Below are positions 11,008-35,861 of a DNA stretch of 64,000 bases, in pieces. The notes below the pieces were generated by a model. That model saw nothing but the letters and a program-made list of their open reading frames with translations, ran no database searches and was not told the origin of the DNA. The position numbers and the translations under genes were made by a program. The number at the start of each line of letters is the position of its first letter. Positions within the stretch are counted from its first letter, which is position 1. This stretch comes from a virus: positions 186,001 through 250,000 of IMG/VR virus record IMGVR_UViG_3300031951_000003; one strand, written 5' to 3'.

Positions 11008-11874
11008 TTAGTATTCTACTCTAATTTTTTTATAACCTGAATCATTCAACAACTTGGTGACTTGTTGTTTGAAATCACTTTTACTGGCATTCCAAGGTGC
11101 TGTTGATTTGAACACAATTTTCAAACTACTCATAGTTTCTTTAGGTTCAAACTTCATCGAGTGAACATATTTACCGTAAGGAAGTGAACGAATTTTTGTT
11201 TTAATTTCTTTATTCAGAACGGTTTTGACCCAAGAATCCAAGTTTTTGTATTCTGTTCCCAATCTATCAATATCTAAATGACCATGGTTTGGATTTCCGA
11301 ATTCCACACCCAAAAAACTCTCGGCAAATTTTGTAAACTCTCTCTCGAGGTTGCTAGGATAAACACTTCGAGTCTCTTCACTTTTAACCATTTCAGGAAA
11401 ATCTAAGACCACTTTGAAGTTAACTTTATAAGGAGAATTTTCTATTAATTCGATGTTTGCCCATGGAGGTAGATTCAATTCATCAATGAAATACTTGATG
11501 GGTCTTTTGAATCTTTCGGTAAATTTTTCATATTTTCTTTTCGATGGTAATTTGTATAAACCCTTTTTTACGATTGATTGAACAATACGAGGTATACTCC
11601 ATCTACTTATTTCAAAATTGTCATTGGAAAACATGGGGTCATCACCAATTAGTTCTTGGATAAATTTCTTTCCATATTTTTCTAATAGATATGATATTGG
11701 TGCATCTTTTTCTGAGTCAGGAAGATTTGTGTTTACCCAATTTCTGAACATTATGAAAAGAGCATCATAATAATCTAAATCGTCCACATAATTGAAATCG
11801 ACGGTATTGTTTTCTTCCATAATTGAATGAATCAAAGATACAAGTTCTGACTCAGATAACCTTAACTTCTTCAT
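11008..11874 (-). CDS. Tagged hypothetical protein (288 aa)
   Basis: MKKLRLSESELVSLIHSIMEE is tag A with an IME|E site. The body is alpha/beta: KFIQELIGDDP, IPRIVQSIVKKGLYKLPSK, then paired strands near the end (GKYVHSMKFEPKE, SSLKIVFKSTAPWN). TATTTATTTAATATG-type spacing at the start. No family recognised. Confidence 0.58.
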   Translation of the reverse strand: MKKLRLSESELVSLIHSIMEENNTVDFNYVDDLDYYDALFIMFRNWVNTNLPDSEKDAPISYLLEKYGKKFIQELIGDDPMFSNDNFEISRWSIPRIVQSIVKKGLYKLPSKRKYEKFTERFKRPIKYFIDELNLPPWANIELIENSPYKVNFKVVLDFPEMVKSEETRSVYPSNLEREFTKFAESFLGVEFGNPNHGHLDIDRLGTEYKNLDSWVKTVLNKEIKTKIRSLPYGKYVHSMKFEPKETMSSLKIVFKSTAPWNASKSDFKQQVTKLLNDSGYKKIRVEY

Positions 11875-27942: not shown

Positions 27943-28449
27943 TTAGAGCGGACCATATTTTCTCATTCTTCTTGATGCTTGTCTACATTCCTTACTCGTT
28001 CTTGTGTTGCCACCAATCAATTTGATTAGTTTAACAACCAACATTAAAATGATAATACCTGCAAACACCTGAATGAAAACAACAGGGATTGCCATTGCAC
28101 CAATTGTTACAATCTCTCCCACTTGTTCACTTTGAGTTTTTCTTTTGAAAATTGATTTAACCTTTTTGATTAACTCCTTAACATCTTTGGCTGAAGTCAG
28201 ACCATCGATTTGTTCTTTGATTTTCTGAAGCATTGTCTTTTGTTTCTCATCCGCAGTTGGAGGAGTTTCAAGTGGACAATCGTTCAACGCAAATTCAATA
28301 TCTTCAGTCGATACGGGTTCTTCCCCAACTGTTGATAGTTCATTATTAATCACGTCAAGAACTTGAGATTCATCTTCTTTCAATAATCTCTTTTCCAATC
28401 TGATGTTGGCTTCTTGTATGTGTCTGATTTTACTATAACTTCTATTCAT
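27943..28449 (-). CDS. Tagged membrane protein (168 aa)
   Basis: MNRSYSKIRHIQEANIRLEK, then RLLKED, is tag D. After a helical acidic section come VGEIVTIGAMAIPVVFIQVF and AGIIILMLVVKLIKLIGG (about 115-150), one or two membrane helices, and a basic Arg-rich end (CRQASRRMRKYGPL). Shares tag D only with 30111-30407. Confidence 0.6.
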   Translation of the reverse strand: MNRSYSKIRHIQEANIRLEKRLLKEDESQVLDVINNELSTVGEEPVSTEDIEFALNDCPLETPPTADEKQKTMLQKIKEQIDGLTSAKDVKELIKKVKSIFKRKTQSEQVGEIVTIGAMAIPVVFIQVFAGIIILMLVVKLIKLIGGNTRTSKECRQASRRMRKYGPL

Positions 28450-28502
28450 AATTTGATTTTATAATAAATACAAAATTTTCCCAAAAATTTTTAAATGAAA
28501 AA

Positions 28503-28526
28503 ACCCCCTTCGAAATTGAAGAGGGT
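28503..28526 (-). terminator. Repeat-family terminator 3
   Basis: Loop variant GAAATT. Confidence 0.75.
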
Positions 28527-28550
28527 CTTGTTCTATAATTCACAATGATG

Positions 28551-28850
28551 TTATTCATCAAACATTGATTCCAATTCTTTAACAACCTCCTTTGCATAAT
28601 CAATAATCTCATCGGCTTGTTCATCAGTCAAATCGTCGTCTTGATAAGCCTCATGCATTATTTTATAAATTTCATTAATACATCTTTCAACCTCATCCAA
28701 ATCCTCCTCCTCATCCATTGCGTGATTTGCAACCATATCAATTACTTTAAAATAATCTTCAGTAGGGTCATCCTCTCTTCTTTGTTCCTTTACTATCTTA
28801 TTAACCAATCTTGTTAAGTCAGATTCTGTGAGTTTTACTATCTTTTTCAT
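28551..28850 (-). CDS. Tagged acidic helical protein (99 aa)
   Basis: ATG at 28850, where tag A (MKKIVKLTESDLTRLVNK then IVKEQ) begins. The body is nearly all acidic helix: RREDDPTEDYFKVIDMVANH, DEEEDLDEVERCINEIYKIM, DLTDEQADEIIDYAKEVVKE. Net charge is strongly negative. Possibly a DNA-mimic or small internal head protein. Confidence 0.6.
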   Translation of the reverse strand: MKKIVKLTESDLTRLVNKIVKEQRREDDPTEDYFKVIDMVANHAMDEEEDLDEVERCINEIYKIMHEAYQDDDLTDEQADEIIDYAKEVVKELESMFDE

Positions 28851-28886
28851 ATGAAATAAATATCCCAAAAATTTTAAAATGAAAAA

Positions 28887-28910
28887 ACCCCCTTCGTAAT
28901 TGAAGAGGGT
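28887..28910 (-). terminator. Repeat-family terminator 4
   Basis: Loop GTAATT. Confidence 0.75.
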
Positions 28911-28940
28911 TTTGTTCTATAAATTAAGATTATTAGTATC

Positions 28941-29381
28941 TTACAAACTTTGTATCAATTTGAATACTTGACCCCTATTCATATTTTCAGTTTTAATTAA
29001 TTTGGGTTTCTCGTCCCCAACCCTTGTATAATATTCAACTTTGTATGGTCCATTAATGTCTTTTAGTCCACTAAAATATATTTTTTTGAATTCATAATTA
29101 GGGTGATTATTTTTACTCAATTGTATAAAATCCCCTTCATCATCCGAAAAATTTTCAACTTTGTTGTTTCCTTTTGCCATACTAATAAGGTTCTCGGTAT
29201 AGATATTTAGTTTCTGTTTTTTTACATTATTATATCCCTTTTCTCTAAGTATATTTTTAATTTTATTTAAAAAACCACCATATATATCATTTTCACCATC
29301 AGTCTTTGTATTTTGTTCTTTAATAACTTTATTAACCAAACGAATCAAATCGTTTTCTGTTAATCTTATAATCTTTGACAT
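28941..29381 (-). CDS. Tagged hypothetical protein, paralogue of 30815 (146 aa)
   Basis: Tag A (SKIIRLTENDLIRLVNK then VIKEQ). The body is Lys/Asn-rich with strands; the last 45 residues (NGPYKVEYYTRVGDEKPKLI, KTENMNRGQVFKLIQSL) align with the end of the 30815 protein (FGPFVVEYFKGGKKIKTEKL, DGYKIGQLLQNFG). A duplicated pair with no recognised family. Confidence 0.6.
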   Translation of the reverse strand: MSKIIRLTENDLIRLVNKVIKEQNTKTDGENDIYGGFLNKIKNILREKGYNNVKKQKLNIYTENLISMAKGNNKVENFSDDEGDFIQLSKNNHPNYEFKKIYFSGLKDINGPYKVEYYTRVGDEKPKLIKTENMNRGQVFKLIQSL

Positions 29382-29447
29382 AGAATTTATTTTCCAATAA
29401 ATATACCAAAAAAGGAGAATTTTTTCCCAAAAATTTTAAAATAAAAA

Positions 29448-29471
29448 ACCCCCTTCTTTTCAGAAGAGGGT
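29448..29471 (-). terminator. Repeat-family terminator 5
   Basis: Loop variant TTTTCA. Confidence 0.75.
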
Positions 29472-29491
29472 CTTGTTTTAAAAAAATATAA

Positions 29492-30007
29492 TTAAATTAA
29501 AGAGAGCTTAATTTTTACACCATTACCCGCGTCAATAGTTGCACTTTTTCCTTGATTACCAGCCAAAGATTGTAATCCCGCATTTAGTTTGTCTTGAGGT
29601 ACTCTAAATTTCATCCATCCATCGGAGGTCAGAGCGTCGGTAGGAATTAATTCTTTCATGATTTTTTTCATAGCATTACCTGATGGTTGAGCTTCTCCCA
29701 GTAATGTTCCTTGTCTGTCTCTTCTAACATTTCTCAAAATTACATTAAAAGGCACGTTAGGTAAAAATGAACCTGGGTCATACACCCCTTTTACACTGTA
29801 TTTGTAAGTTGTGTTTGGAATGTTCTGTCCTTTGTTGTCTCTTTGTGAAAGATAAATTGTACCAGTTCCGTCGCTTGAAGCATTAACCAAAGCTGGAGTT
29901 GCAAGAACAGTTAACAAAGGAACTTGAGCCATAGGTGCTTGTTCTTTTATAACTCTCTTAACCAAATTCAACAAGTCGGATTCAGTTAATTTTATAATTT
30001 TCGACAT
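29492..30007 (-). CDS. Tagged beta-rich protein (171 aa)
   Basis: Tag A (SKIIKLTESDLLNLVKR then VIKEQ). The body starts with a small-residue stretch (APMAQVPLLTVLATPALVNA) and continues as strands (GTGTIYLSQRDNKGQN, PFNVILRNVRRDRQGTLLGE, ATIDAGNGVKIKLSLI). No family recognised. Confidence 0.58.
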   Translation of the reverse strand: MSKIIKLTESDLLNLVKRVIKEQAPMAQVPLLTVLATPALVNASSDGTGTIYLSQRDNKGQNIPNTTYKYSVKGVYDPGSFLPNVPFNVILRNVRRDRQGTLLGEAQPSGNAMKKIMKELIPTDALTSDGWMKFRVPQDKLNAGLQSLAGNQGKSATIDAGNGVKIKLSLI

Positions 30008-30075
30008 ATAACTTATTTTACTATAAATAGACCCAAAAAGGACAATTTTTTCCCAAAAAATTTTTTTAAGAAAAA

Positions 30076-30099
30076 ACCCCCTTCGTAATTGAAGAGGGT
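30076..30099 (-). terminator. Repeat-family terminator 6
   Basis: Loop GTAATT. Confidence 0.75.
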
Positions 30100-30110
30100 C
30101 TTATTTCAGA

Positions 30111-30407
30111 TTAACTTTGACCGAATCGTCTGTAGTATCTTATTTCATAATATCTTTTATCCTTACAATCTATTCTTGTTCTAGAACCATACTCATATGA
30201 GGGAATACAAAAACCTGATTTAATATTTTTTATTAGTTCTTCAGTTGATTTAACCGCATTAGGGTCTGATTTTATTGTTTGAGGAGTTGATTGTTCAGAA
30301 AGATTGTGCATACCAAATCTACTTTCAGGTTGTTCCTTCAATAATCTTTTTTCCAACATTAAATTTGATTCCTGAATATGTCTTATTTTACTGAAACTTC
30401 TATTCAT
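30111..30407 (-). CDS. Tag D protein (98 aa)
   Basis: ATG 30407, 5 codons inside the longest reading, because MNRSFSKIRHIQESNLMLEK, then RLLKEQ matches tag D of the 27943 gene. After the tag the body is short: a Ser/Thr-rich stretch and SGFCIPSYEYGSRTRIDCKD, KRYYEIRYYRRFG, with two Cys. No membrane segment, unlike its tag-mate. Confidence 0.55.
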   Translation of the reverse strand: MNRSFSKIRHIQESNLMLEKRLLKEQPESRFGMHNLSEQSTPQTIKSDPNAVKSTEELIKNIKSGFCIPSYEYGSRTRIDCKDKRYYEIRYYRRFGQS

Positions 30408-30462
30408 AAAATATGTTTCCAATAAATACTCCCAAAAATTTTTTTCTCAGTTGAAGGATAAA

Positions 30463-30714
30463 TTAAATCAAATGGTCGTGTTTTAGAAAAAGAATATAAC
30501 CTTCAATATCTCTCAATACTTGGTTTACATTCCTACCCGACAAATGATAAAACCCATGTTTACTTTTTTTGATTGTTATAAGTTCCCCATTTGAAAAATA
30601 TATTCTTTTCGGTGACCTTCTAACAACCGAGACCTTATTACTCCCATTCATATAATGGTCCCCAACATTACAATCCAAAATAAACTGATGTGATTTTATC
30701 CATAAATTTTCCAT
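30463..30714 (-). CDS. Hypothetical protein (83 aa)
   Basis: MENLWIKSHQFILDCNVGDH, strand-rich basic centre (NKVSVVRRSPKRIYFSNGELITIKKSKHGFYHL) and a helix (VNQVLRDIEGYILFLK). Looks like a small SH3-like or OB-like barrel. Untagged, and lacks the ATATTTAT box. No family recognised. Confidence 0.5.
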   Translation of the reverse strand: MENLWIKSHQFILDCNVGDHYMNGSNKVSVVRRSPKRIYFSNGELITIKKSKHGFYHLSGRNVNQVLRDIEGYILFLKHDHLI

Positions 30715-30766
30715 AACACAAAAATAAGAAATGTTCTTTTTTTTCCCAAAAATTTCAAATTAAAAA

Positions 30767-30790
30767 ACCCCCTTCGTTTCGGAAGAGGGT
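30767..30790 (-). terminator. Repeat-family terminator 7
   Basis: Loop variant GTTTCG. Confidence 0.75.
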
Positions 30791-30814
30791 CATGTTTATA
30801 GTTAAATTTCTTTA

Positions 30815-31198
30815 TTACCCAAAGTTTTGGAGAAGTTGCCCAATTTTATATCCATCCAATTTTTCTGTTTTGATTTTTTTTCCACCTTTAAAATATTCTA
30901 CAACGAAAGGTCCGAACATACTATAGTTATTCAAATAAATTATTGTAGATTCTGGACTTGTCCCCGTGTCACTTAAAATCAATTTTTTTTGACCTCCTTC
31001 ATCATAAAAATCAACCGTGTAAGGTCTCTTGTACATTGATAAAAGTGAATAATTGCTTTTAATAAGTTTGAATCCTTTCTTTAAAAAATCTTTTTTTACC
31101 ATTTGTAAAAAAGATTCTAAAGTCTCTGATTGTTCTTGAATTACTCTTTTCGCCAAACGAACCAAATCTTGTTCTGTAAGTTTTATAACTTTTGACAT
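30815..31198 (-). CDS. Tagged hypothetical protein, paralogue of 28941 (127 aa)
   Basis: ATG 31198, where tag A (SKVIKLTEQDLVRLAKR then VIQEQ) begins. Helix (LESFLQMVKKDFLKKGFKLI), strands (PYTVDFYDEGGQKKLILSDTG) and a final FGPFVVEYFKGGKKIKTEKL shared with 28941. TATATTTATAATAA box upstream. Function unknown. Confidence 0.6.
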   Translation of the reverse strand: MSKVIKLTEQDLVRLAKRVIQEQSETLESFLQMVKKDFLKKGFKLIKSNYSLLSMYKRPYTVDFYDEGGQKKLILSDTGTSPESTIIYLNNYSMFGPFVVEYFKGGKKIKTEKLDGYKIGQLLQNFG

Positions 31199-31308
31199 AT
31201 AAATAATTTTATTATAAATATACCGAAAAAGGACAATTTTTCCCAAAAATTTTTTTTGCGTTATTCAAGGTATTATCCCCCCCAAAACTGACATTTTGAC
31301 CTACATAA

Positions 31309-32639: not shown

Positions 32640-32723
32640 ATGAGACGATTTTTAAAAGCCCTTCTTGTTGGCTACATTATCCTTGGTGTGTGGGATATTC
32701 TCTTTGGAAAAAAGAAACCTTAG
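32640..32723 (+). CDS. Single-pass membrane peptide (27 aa)
   Basis: MRRFLKALLVGYIILGVWDI then LFGKKKP. Basic ends flank one membrane helix. Converges with the 32720-33001 gene, overlapping by 4 bases. Confidence 0.4.
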   Translation: MRRFLKALLVGYIILGVWDILFGKKKP

Positions 32724-33001
32724 AGCCCCGCCCCTCTTATTAACTCCCTACACTTCTCTATTATCTGAGTTGGGGTAATGGACTCGTCTTTCGTATAGAG
32801 TCCCTCCACTTTTGCATCCACGCATGCCCATGCGTTTAGTCCGATAGGTTTTCTTACAAACCCCGTCTTTGCCTTCTCGAAATATAAAATCCCTAAGTGT
32901 TCCCTCAGGTCCCCGAGCTTGAAACTTACCTCCACCGATATTCGGTCAGGGGTAATCAGTGTGATATCAAATGACAGTTTGTCCATGGTCCCATTAAACA
33001 T
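32720..33001 (-). CDS. Hypothetical protein (93 aa)
   Basis: MFNGTMDKLSFDITLITPDR, strand (ISVEVSFKLGDLREHLGILYFEK), AWACVDAKVEG and a C-terminal helix (PTQIIEKCRELIRGAGL). No family recognised. Confidence 0.52.
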   Translation of the reverse strand: MFNGTMDKLSFDITLITPDRISVEVSFKLGDLREHLGILYFEKAKTGFVRKPIGLNAWACVDAKVEGLYTKDESITPTQIIEKCRELIRGAGL

Positions 33002-33733
33002 AGTTTAGGAACATATAAAAATAAAGAATGTGGAAAACTTCTTTTGGTCCTGACGCTATGTCAGTGTGGAAAACTTTTCTTTCGTTGGGGGTAAATGTGG
33101 ATAACTTTTTTTGATTTTGTCATAATGTCAGGGGAGCGTTGCATAGGGGATAATCCCCTCGACCCATTTTCCCCCACTTTTCCCCACCACTCATTCCCAC
33201 ATTTTCCCACCACTTATGGTCATGTAGATAGTGTAAAGACCACTTTTTCCCCTCTCACGGTATCAGGAAGACCAGTTTTTTAATATGTATGTTTCTTAGC
33301 AAAAAAAGGAAGATTAAGTATGAGACGGGGGGAGTGAACGTAGTGAACCTTTAATGTGTATTAATTAACCTTCAACGAGAGGGACATTTTGTCTCCCTGT
33401 AGCGATGGACAAGTAGTATATGGTGGTAAAATGTGGAGGTAAAAAGTTATAGATATGATTATAGTTTATCACGATAGTGTTGTATATTGTAATCATGTTT
33501 ATAACTTATCATATATCGTTTCGTTATACGATATGTCATTATATCGTGTGAATATACGATTGTCTATAATATCGTTTCATTAGACGATTATGTAATCACC
33601 ATCTCATCTGTCCCCTCACTGAGTGGGGGGAACTTATGGGTGGGGGAAAAGTCAAGTTCATATACTGTGTAGTCTTACTTTTTTATGTAAAAGTAAAGTT
33701 ATAACTTTACTTAAATGGGTGATACTTATTACT
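33002..33733. other. Non-coding hub, candidate replication origin / control region
   Basis: 732 bases without a credible gene. It holds three TGTGGA(A/T)AACTT boxes (33029, 33065, 33096), the last containing a DnaA-box-like TGTGGATAA, a hairpin AGGGGA-TAA-TCCCCT (33145-33159), a G-poor stretch (33163-33220), and three dyad iterons (33513-33588). Strand bias of genes also loosens here. Origin function is inference from these signs together. Confidence 0.5.
33513..33588. repeat. Three dyad iterons with exact 28-bp period
   Basis: ATATCGT-N8-ACGAT at 33513, 33541 and 33569. Each unit is a dyad with the same 8-base spacer length; the spacers differ. Degenerate halves lie upstream (ATATTGT at 33484, ACGAT at 33471). 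Lies 145 bases before the GIY-YIG/XRE gene, whose HTH could bind it. Confidence 0.8.
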
Positions 33734-34192
33734 ATGATATACTTTATAGAAAATTTAGAAACCAAACACATTAAAATTGGTTTCACTACAGATATTAAAA
33801 ATAGACTAAGTAACTTACAGACATCTTCACCATATGAGTTAAAAGTGTTAGCGGTTTGTGAAGGAAATGATAAAACCGAAAAAGAATTACATATTAAATT
33901 TAACGATTACCATACCAGAGGAGAGTGGTTTAATCCTAATAAAGAATTGATTGACTATATCAGTCAGTTCCCCCCATATAAGTCAGATAACAAACAACAC
34001 GGTAATTTAGCTAGTCTAAGAAAACAGAAGAAGATGAGTATGGAAGAAGTTGGTAAAAAAATGAAGATAAGTAAACAAGCTGTTTCAGATATCGAAAAGA
34101 GATACGAATATGGTAATATAACAATCAAAAACCTTAGGTCATATCTTGATGCTATTGGTTATGATGTTACTATAGTTTTCTCGCCGAAATAA
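33734..34192 (+). CDS. GIY-YIG nuclease (MUG113/T5orf172 type) fused to XRE helix-turn-helix
   Basis: 152 residues from ATG 33734; earlier in-frame starts add a hydrophobic leader that I reject. MIYFIENLETKHIKIGFTTD and RLSNLQTSSPYEL, then ELHIKFNDYHTRGEWF match GIY-YIG proteins of the T5orf172/MUG113 group. Residues 91-145 (LASLRKQKKMSMEEVGKKMK, ISKQAVSDIEK) are an XRE HTH. The pairing suggests a site-directed nuclease or a self-regulating initiator. Iterons lie upstream, a structured element right downstream. Confidence 0.82.
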   Translation: MIYFIENLETKHIKIGFTTDIKNRLSNLQTSSPYELKVLAVCEGNDKTEKELHIKFNDYHTRGEWFNPNKELIDYISQFPPYKSDNKQHGNLASLRKQKKMSMEEVGKKMKISKQAVSDIEKRYEYGNITIKNLRSYLDAIGYDVTIVFSPK

Positions 34193-34284
34193 GATTATAC
34201 AACAAGTGAGTGAATGAAGGACACTCCCGAACCTTTAGGTGAGGGATGTATTGTGTCCGTAGTGAATGAACTTGTTGTATAATC
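34193..34284 (+). ncRNA. Structured RNA element, copy 1
   Basis: Closing stem GATTATACAACAAG (34193-34206) / CTTGTTGTATAATC (34271-34284), perfect over 14 pairs. Inside: GGACAC/GTGTCC (34219-34224 / 34253-34258), TCCC/GGGA, a symmetric GA/GA internal loop, and an ACC-TTTA-GGT hairpin. It follows the GIY-YIG/XRE stop directly. Copy 2 at 35176 keeps the fold with compensatory changes. It also could terminate both converging GIY-YIG genes. Confidence 0.72.
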
Positions 34285-35036
34285 TAAACTTGATAAACTT
34301 CATATGAGATAGGGATAGATAGTGATTGTTTGATGTTATCAATCATGCCCGTTCTTTGTTTAACATTTCCCCATGTAATGAAGAAAAGACCATTTTCTAA
34401 CTGAATGAAGCTATTTCTGTTCATTTTTTTTGGGTCTGAAGTCATAGACGAAGGGAGTTCATCTTTTGTCTTTTTGAAGTAATTGGGTAACTTGGTAAGT
34501 AAAACTTCAGGTGAGAAATTGGTTGAGAGATACTGACCAAGAAGAACATATCTATCAATAGTTGTATCCGCGACAAATTCAGTATTATCAATAAAGATTT
34601 TGATTGAAGACCTGACTTTTTTGATATTTTCTAAAATCTCAATTTTTTGAGTTTGAGTGGTCCCTGAATCTGAGACAATTGATTCAGTTAAATCAAGTTC
34701 AAGTGTTTCGGGAAAATAATTGGTAAGTTTAGTAATTTTTTTGTGTAATAAATCCTCATCATCACAATCAAACCATTCAGTGGTAATACTTTTTCTATCG
34801 TTATATTCTTTAGTAACTCTATATTCTTCGAAACATGCGTGGAGGGCCTTTTCTAAGGAACTCATGTGATTAGTTTGGAATATACGTATAAACACAACGT
34901 CCACAGGCATGTGTGTAGAATTTAACGCGGTTTCTCGGGATTTATAATCTATGGACCGACCTAACTTATAATAATTCGTTATAAAATTACCAAGATGGTC
35001 AACCATTCTTCCAATGTAACAATAACCTTGACTCAT
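34284..35036 (-). CDS. T5orf172-type GIY-YIG nuclease-like protein (250 aa)
   Basis: GYCYIGRMVDHLGNFITNYY, KLGRS and RETALNSTHMP, then SSLEKALHACFEEYRV and TTEWFDCDDEDL match a GIY-YIG family core of the T5orf172 type in the first 120 residues. The second half has helical and strand parts (KVRSSIKIFIDNTEFVADTT) and no recognised domain. Convergent with 33734; both end on copy 1 of the structured element. Phage T5orf172 proteins may be homing or host-attack nucleases; role not shown. Confidence 0.75.
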   Translation of the reverse strand: MSQGYCYIGRMVDHLGNFITNYYKLGRSIDYKSRETALNSTHMPVDVVFIRIFQTNHMSSLEKALHACFEEYRVTKEYNDRKSITTEWFDCDDEDLLHKKITKLTNYFPETLELDLTESIVSDSGTTQTQKIEILENIKKVRSSIKIFIDNTEFVADTTIDRYVLLGQYLSTNFSPEVLLTKLPNYFKKTKDELPSSMTSDPKKMNRNSFIQLENGLFFITWGNVKQRTGMIDNIKQSLSIPISYEVYQV

Positions 35037-35092
35037 AAATTATTTTATGAGCTAAAATAAAAAATATTTTTCTTCTTACAAAAAATTATTTT

Positions 35093-35115
35093 ACCCCCTC
35101 ACTTATGCGGGGGGT
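35093..35115. other. GC-rich hairpin
   Basis: ACCCCC/GGGGGT stem with a 11-base loop upstream of the 34284-35036 gene start; GGTGGGGGG follows. Terminator-like, but no transcript clearly ends here. Confidence 0.45.
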
Positions 35116-35175
35116 TTATTAGGTGGGGGGTTATCTTTAATCTTGTATGAATCAACAAGGATTACTTAACAGTTC

Positions 35176-35276
35176 GATTATACAATTAAAGAGTGAAGTG
35201 AATGAGGACACTTCCGAACCGAAGGTGAGGAATGTATTTGTGTCCGATATGAACTGAACGAATTAATTGGATAATC
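35176..35276 (+). ncRNA. Structured RNA element, copy 2
   Basis: Closing stem GATTATACAATTAA / TTAATTGGATAATC (35176-35189 / 35263-35276), 13 of 14 pairs. Inside: GGACAC/GTGTCC, TTCC/GGAA, GA/GA internal loop, ACC-GAA-GGT hairpin. Compared with copy 1, TCCC/GGGA became TTCC/GGAA and the distal closing stem changed on both sides. Followed by a T-run (TTTTTTT) and the 35293 gene. Confidence 0.72.
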
Positions 35277-35292
35277 TTTTTTTACTATATTT

Positions 35293-35547
35293 ATGGATAT
35301 GGGAGAAGCACTTCAGAAGATATTAGAACAATTGATTGTAAAGAAGTATAATTCACTTATTGGAGTGGATGTTTCTAACTTTTATATGAATGAGGATTGG
35401 TATAGAATTACTTATTATTTTAATCCACCACTTGAGCATAAAGATGCTATTGAGATTATGGAAGAGACCGCGACTTTATATAAAATGCTTGGTCCGAGTG
35501 GTAAGGGAGACATAATCGTTGATTTTAAAAAAGTTGAGGATAAATGA
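35293..35547 (+). CDS. Hypothetical protein (84 aa)
   Basis: MDMGEALQKILEQLIVKKYN is a tag-F-like helix (ILE|Q). Strands follow (WYRITYYFNPPLEHKDAIEI, KGDIIVDFKKVEDK). Overlaps the next gene by 4 bases (ATGA). No family recognised. Confidence 0.55.
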   Translation: MDMGEALQKILEQLIVKKYNSLIGVDVSNFYMNEDWYRITYYFNPPLEHKDAIEIMEETATLYKMLGPSGKGDIIVDFKKVEDK

Positions 35548-35861
35548 CCGTCGAACAAGAAGTAAATAGGATTGTTAAATTTGTTAAGGAATTATATTCC
35601 CCCTATGATGTTTATGTTCAGGGCAGTAAAATGGGTAAGTATAGTATCATATTTTACTTCGAGGAAATCGACGACAGGTATATTGTTAATCCGCAGCATA
35701 AGGACCAAAAACAACATAAAGCCAACATGTTTAAACGCGAAATTAGAGACCAAATATATAACTTCTTCGGAATCAAAACCACGGGACTGCAACCAAATGA
35801 TTATTTTTCCCCACACGAAGAACACCCTATAACAATCGTTGTAACCTATGTAAATAAATAA
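35544..35861 (+). CDS. Hypothetical protein (105 aa)
   Basis: MTVEQEVNRIVKFVKELYSP helix, strands (YDVYVQGSKMGKYSIIFYFEE), HKDQKQHKANMFKREIRDQI helix and a final strand TIVVTYVNK. Similar helix-strand-helix-strand plan to other small proteins here. No family recognised. Confidence 0.55.
   Translation: MTVEQEVNRIVKFVKELYSPYDVYVQGSKMGKYSIIFYFEEIDDRYIVNPQHKDQKQHKANMFKREIRDQIYNFFGIKTTGLQPNDYFSPHEEHPITIVVTYVNK

Follow-up and report, generated by a model that had tools for sequence, protein, structure and literature searches.

A candidate structured RNA locus with hairpins built on tandem G-A pairs in uncultured T4-like jumbo phages

Introduction

The closest described systems are GOLLD and ROOL, large and heavily structured non-coding RNAs of phages and prophages whose function is unknown (PMC12286853). 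Few large structured phage RNAs are known at all, and their roles are open. At the level of single motifs, tandem G-A/A-G pairs within a helix are found in the K-turn, loop E and the SECIS quartet, where they are a usual surface for protein docking.

Here, we describe a hairpin element that occupied the same locus throughout a jumbo-phage clade in which the identity of a neighbouring protein spanned about 40-79%. The element kept its fold while nearly all of its sequence changed, and it was built on an unusually regular ladder of tandem G-A pairs. Similar to GOLLD and ROOL, the locus was large, non-coding, heavily structured and encoded by phages, and by analogy it may work like other structured phage RNAs. 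The covariance models of GOLLD, ROOL and OLE gave no match here.

Source record and relatives

The window, that is the whole 64-kb stretch of DNA that was analysed, corresponded to positions 186001-250000 of a virus record of 321,139 bases, which contained T4-type portal and tail-fibre genes. Relatives were gathered with two baits, the UDP-galactopyranose mutase gene and a conserved 93-aa gene at 32720-33001, and their whole records were scanned with covariance model R2 and then R3 (the E-values of these models were rough). R3 matched the element in 22 of 68 records, and a divergent element type was recognised by eye in three more (L126, L128 and L141). A dozen or so more contigs, of up to 291 kb, showed the same pairing in an independent scan for the ladder pattern alone. 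In total, approximately 40 contigs carried the element, some of them near-identical to each other. The covariation analysis covered 27 distinct sequences of related phages, all uncultured. Their pairing register was taken from the first element of the window and imposed on every one.

Exact core patterns searched against IMG/VR, and a protein search with the GIY-YIG gene next to the element, returned the same phage only. In bacterial and archaeal genome contigs and in cultured phages there was no match to the element, to the 93-aa gene or to the non-coding region of one relative. Several candidates were rejected: the weak matches in L098, L152 and L153, at window position 11141 and at L096 1216 were due to chance or to another hairpin, L205 and L206 were simple repeats of the GAATGAAT type, and L213 and L226 appeared to be the same as L205.

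Two copies of one hairpin in the window

A first-pass annotation had placed two copies of a structured element on the plus strand of the window, and both were present: a complete hairpin at 34193-34284 (E1), also matched by covariance models in relatives, and a second copy at 35176-35276 (E2), which differed by an additional GA step and by compensatory changes according to the pair table and the covariance-model search. E1 was composed of a 14-bp outer stem, a GA ladder, a GGACAC/GTGTCC stem, a TCCC/GGGA stem, a GA/GA step and an ACC-TTTA-GGT hairpin, with an asymmetric 3' loop (TGTATT) between the GGACAC/GTGTCC and TCCC/GGGA stems. Folding confirmed every part of the nested fold that had been proposed, namely the outer stem, GGACAC/GTGTCC, TYCC/GGRA, GA/GA and ACC..GGT. 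The RNA folding energy was -43.6 kcal/mol for E1 (z -9.2) and -32.5 kcal/mol for E2 (z -4.6); no shuffled sequence equalled these values, and the reverse complement folded more weakly.

The claimed covariation between the two copies was also borne out. Four pairs were altered on both sides between E1 and E2 (C-G to T-A, A-T to T-A, G-C to A-T and again C-G to T-A, the last of these in TCCC/GGGA), one further pair changed from G-U to G-C, and the outer stem of E2 contained a single A-G mismatch. The annotation had left the class unrecognised, and we found no match to any Rfam family either: Rfam 15 at the gathering score gave 0 matches in the whole 64-kb window, the E-value mode on 34100-35400 gave nothing that overlapped E1 or E2, and the relatives L125, L133 and L130 gave none at E<=0.5. 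The literature that we searched held no description of the hairpin element. By eye, a possible short ORF through E2 (35148 onward) was absent in E1, and therefore coding was not the reason for the conservation.

The GA ladder and its strand preference

The GTGAATGAA repeats that had been described as flanking the core were present. However, they were not loose flanks, as they paired with each other to form the GA ladder. In E1, the 5' side of the ladder (T GA GT GA AT GAA, plus strand, 34207-34218) paired with the 3' side (GTA GT GA AT GA A, plus strand, 34259-34270) in the folds and in the covariation analysis. In E2, the fold and the pair table placed the corresponding sides at 35190-35205 (AGA GT GA AGT GA AT GA) and 35246-35262 (GAT AT GA ACT GA AC GAA), both on the plus strand. 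Thus, the lower stem was itself the ladder, where steps of 2-3 bp alternated with tandem G-A/A-G mismatches, and there were three tandem GA/GA steps in E1 and four in E2. The consensus was 5'-GA-NN-GA-NN-GNA ... GNA-NN-GA-NN-GA-3' with Watson-Crick or G-U pairs at the steps.

Two copies by themselves were slender evidence. According to the first-pass annotation, a lack of further homologues with significant covariation would refute its proposal. The proposal withstood this check: our covariance-model search found homologues in other phage genomes, and the covariation among them was strong. Namely, 86.1% of the ladder and outer-stem cells were paired in the 27 sequences, compared to 68.2% after shuffling and 26-44% when the register was slid. 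Shared ancestry means that covariation cells are not independent events, yet the 83 double compensatory cells exceeded both controls (27 in shuffled and 9-22 in slid alignments). The covariation score was 0.570 versus 0.242 for shuffled sequences, and none of the 500 shuffles reached either the observed number of double changes or the observed score. The inner GA/GA step was invariant (27/27) and the outer one was kept in 25 of the 27 sequences, with covarying pairs next to them.

The wobble cells comprised 40 G-U and 1 A-C, and the ratio was 14:1 in the outer stem alone. Since G-U cells were far above A-C cells, it was the plus strand that folded, rather than its complement or a cruciform. 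The annotation had suggested selection on either RNA or a cruciform; the cruciform was disfavoured by this bias, and selection on RNA remained in agreement with it. As predicted from the sequences, the selected molecule is the plus strand, although RNA and single-stranded DNA would give the same bias. Most of the ladder steps were found in the Y[GA]R context, and the tandem G-A pairs would have sheared geometry.

Folded single-stranded DNA was the main rival to the RNA reading. It is possible that the plus strand folds when it is exposed in replication and serves as an origin, a primosome site or a processing signal, and we regard this as unlikely but deserving serious attention. Tandem sheared GA in the Py-GA-Pu context is very stable in DNA too. 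Accordingly, the Y[GA]R context at most of the steps spoke for this explanation, and the one-sided tolerance of G-T suited it as well as it suited RNA. Moreover, the neighbouring non-coding region contained DnaA-box-like TGTGGATAA motifs (around 33095). Against this, the GC-skew analysis revealed no switch at the locus, the distance between the element and the non-coding region shifted by kilobases, and whole arrays of distinct covarying hairpins are commoner in RNA.

A conserved non-coding region next to the element

The 93-aa gene (32720-33001, minus strand) was found in 33 IMG/VR relatives. At its start codon began a conserved structured non-coding region (33002-33650, plus strand), from which the gene diverged. 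The 93-aa protein (LYFEKAK...WACVDAKIEGLY; alignment A11), which stood next to the non-coding region in these 33 IMG/VR contigs, belonged to no family, and its structure model (pLDDT 80) had no PDB match at E<=0.001.

We aligned the non-coding region across 19 relatives. In the clade it was approximately 650-750 nt long and lay between the 93-aa gene and the element. The z-scores of its fold were -5.7 on the plus and -3.9 on the minus strand in the window, and -4.3 and -4.9 in L133. Six covarying helices were detected when at least 2 consecutive pairs were required, compared to 0-3 in permuted controls; a helix scan that required 4 consecutive pairs found nothing. Inside the region we identified a small GA/GA hairpin, H1 (GT GA AC GTA GT GA AC, 33334-33348, plus strand). 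Both-sided changes occurred at all 4 of its 4 pairs, 100% pairing was observed in 9 distinct sequences, 0 of 500 shuffles reached this, and the GA/GA was invariant. Separately, window positions 33440-33600 contained long AU-rich hairpins with TATCGT/ACGATA repeats that folded strongly on both strands.

Comparison with the relatives delimited a leader at the end of the non-coding region (CACCATCTCAT..CCCCTCA..GGTGGGGG, 33598-33650, plus strand), which the element directly abutted in several relatives. A second copy of the leader end was located upstream of E2 (35083-35130, plus strand) and matched the leader of L118 with 93% identity over 29 nt (E 1.6e-7). A small hairpin pair, GTAAT-GTAG-ATTAC followed by CGTAATGGCCGTTACG, was also conserved just upstream of many element copies (L133, L138, L120, L132, L124 and L125).

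The element kept to one locus. All 29 mapped copies from 21 records pointed away from the 93-aa gene, at 657-5852 nt from its start; two copies were present in 8 records and none was found elsewhere in records of up to 326 kb. The element followed the non-coding region directly or a few kb downstream, and genes intervened between the two not only in the window but also in G005, G018 and G045. In the contigs identified by the ladder only, the 93-aa gene was mostly unrecognisable. Nevertheless, nhmmer/HMM searches located the non-coding region in most of these contigs, immediately upstream of the element (E 1.8e-125 to 3e-10), and therefore the conserved unit was the non-coding region together with the hairpin. 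On the other hand, the genes downstream differed among the elements, and thus no cis-regulated target was apparent.

Two gene groups of the vicinity may be mentioned on their own account. Tandem small paralogous genes (L..KLI.K.I..KY..I.DF.V) were present beside elements at 35293-35861 of the window, at 7080-7711 of L105 and at 5632-6565 of L103. In addition, several small proteins encoded by minus-strand genes at 27943-31246 of the window had in common an N-terminal segment some 25 aa long (for example, MSKIIRLTENDLIRLVNKVIKEQ and MKKIVKLTESDLTRLVNKIVKEQ), which ended in a motif resembling the T4 prohead protease site (I/L-x-E). The segment may serve as a leader that targets packaged internal proteins to the capsid.

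Nuclease genes as probable guests

The first-pass annotation had stressed that the elements lay beside GIY-YIG genes. This was true but secondary, since the partner that recurred across phages was the conserved non-coding region. According to Pfam, a GIY-YIG (T5orf172/MUG113) gene with an HTH was encoded at 33737-34192 (plus strand), with its stop codon abutting E1, and a second GIY-YIG (T5orf172) gene was encoded at 34284-35036 (minus strand), antisense to the elements and with its 3' end abutting E1. In some relatives, GIY-YIG, HNH or endonuclease VII-like genes occupied the same place.

These genes raised the question of whether GIY-YIG/HNH genes carried a homing or mobile unit with the elements as its ends or its target site. 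In such a case, the nuclease genes would spread by cutting beside the hairpin, and the copies would flank the inserted gene. Indeed, the only two T5orf172 genes of the 321-kb record flanked E1 without spacing, HNH/endonuclease VII-like, GIY-YIG or homing genes abutted or neighboured the elements of L106, L133, L104 and L129, the leader end was duplicated ahead of E2, and chimeric or remnant copies existed (L230 and L130). However, many elements had no nuclease nearby (L102, L105, L103, L125, L126 and L131), and no element was ever found outside the one locus. Moreover, a dispensable element would not retain its pairs by compensation across such divergent genomes, and we consider a homing unit quite unlikely. 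The simplest reading was that homing-type genes invade the locus and that the element is independent of them; the GIY-YIG genes are probably guests there.

Damaged copies of the element were observed as well. The copy at 1761-1866 of L230 (about 1780-1847 of G010) was a chimera of a GATTATA-type left half and an AATGTGG-type right half, of the kind that recombination between two adjacent elements would leave. Left-arm remnants that ended near the start of the GA ladder were found at 6252-6270 of L103 and just before the element of L130 (GATTATAGACTGAG; GATTATACAGTAATAAG).

Other functions considered for the hairpin

A transcription terminator, or a hairpin protecting the mRNA 3' end of the preceding genes, would fit the position of E1 directly after a stop codon and between convergent genes, the L105 element that began at a stop codon, and the seven T behind E2. 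We nevertheless hold it to be very unlikely: a run of at least 5 T followed just 2 of the 27 elements, several elements came after the non-coding leader rather than after a gene, and an invariant GA ladder would be superfluous in an ordinary terminator.

The suggestion that the element might be a ribozyme found no support. E1 and E2 did have a compact nested fold with conserved internal loops. However, no Rfam ribozyme matched at E<=5, and the hairpin tip was very variable, ranging between a 20-nt stem-loop (L097a and L133) and a permuted form of the tip of E1 (L120). The apical domain was wholly different between subfamilies, which left the GA/GA steps as the only constant residues. A shared catalytic core was therefore unlikely, and self-cleavage is scarcely credible. 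The same holds for an attC-like site of integron recombination, which would lie between gene cassettes and fold as single-stranded DNA. Here, the imperfect palindrome right behind stop codons and its variable terminal structure were outweighed by the fixed locus and orientation, the lack of a cassette array and the absence of the tyrosine recombinase PF00589 from the 321-kb record (all control genomes were positive).

Proposed model of the locus

The fold, its covariation and strand preference, the fixed locus and orientation, and the co-occurrence with the non-coding region were all shown by the sequence analysis. Compensatory changes above the controls together with strand-specific wobble are the marks of a structured RNA in the general sense; the element showed both and is predicted to be one. 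We think it probable, with some reservation, that uncultured T4-like jumbo phages carry a structured RNA locus not described before, and that both E1 and E2 represent one of its modules.

In our model, a folded non-coding region of approximately 650-750 nt is read away from the 93-aa gene and followed by one or two hairpins, either directly or after a few small genes. The region would be transcribed as a non-coding RNA or a part of it, and the hairpin would act as RNA. A protein, or a different part of the RNA, may dock onto the constant GA/GA ladder, which would present a rigid helix face rich in purines, and the variable tip and the outer stem would merely keep the ladder in place. Homing-type GIY-YIG/HNH nucleases presumably entered this conserved intergenic locus as guests in several phages, and in the window they would have split or duplicated the leader and the hairpin.

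A bolder version is that the locus encodes a large (about 0.75-1 kb) phage non-coding RNA of a new class, universal in a broad T4-like jumbo clade, with tandem sheared G-A ladder hairpins as repeated docking modules and recurrent colonisation by homing nucleases. We put this forward tentatively, as something a little short of an even prospect. Given the genes that separate the hairpin from the non-coding region in the window, G005, G018 and G045, the two need not be one RNA. In either version, the GA ladder offers a clear hypothesis for a protein-binding platform, and the element can be tested directly in metatranscriptomes by means of the covariance models and the phage list.

Comparison with known systems

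Short intergenic imperfect palindromes, sometimes in more than one copy per genome, are also typical of REP/BIME or MITE-like repeats. However, the element was not dispersed: it occurred in one to two copies, at one locus and in one orientation in all relatives. A dispersed palindromic repeat (REP/MITE) was disfavoured, with 29 of 29 copies lying within 5.9 kb of one gene in the same orientation. As with intrinsic terminators, some of the stem-loops immediately followed a stop codon, but 25 of the 27 elements were without a U-tract.

The element shared tandem G-A/A-G pairs inside a helix with the kink-turn, loop E and the SECIS quartet. Unlike the kink-turn, its GA/GA loops were symmetric (2x2) and recurred two to four times, separated by Watson-Crick steps, and it folded without a 3-nt bulge beside the tandem G-A pairs. 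Finally, the locus differed from GOLLD and ROOL in that it was not near a tRNA island (there was no tRNA in the 64-kb window) and in that it carried a modular hairpin with a tandem-GA ladder, which could be separated from the rest or duplicated.
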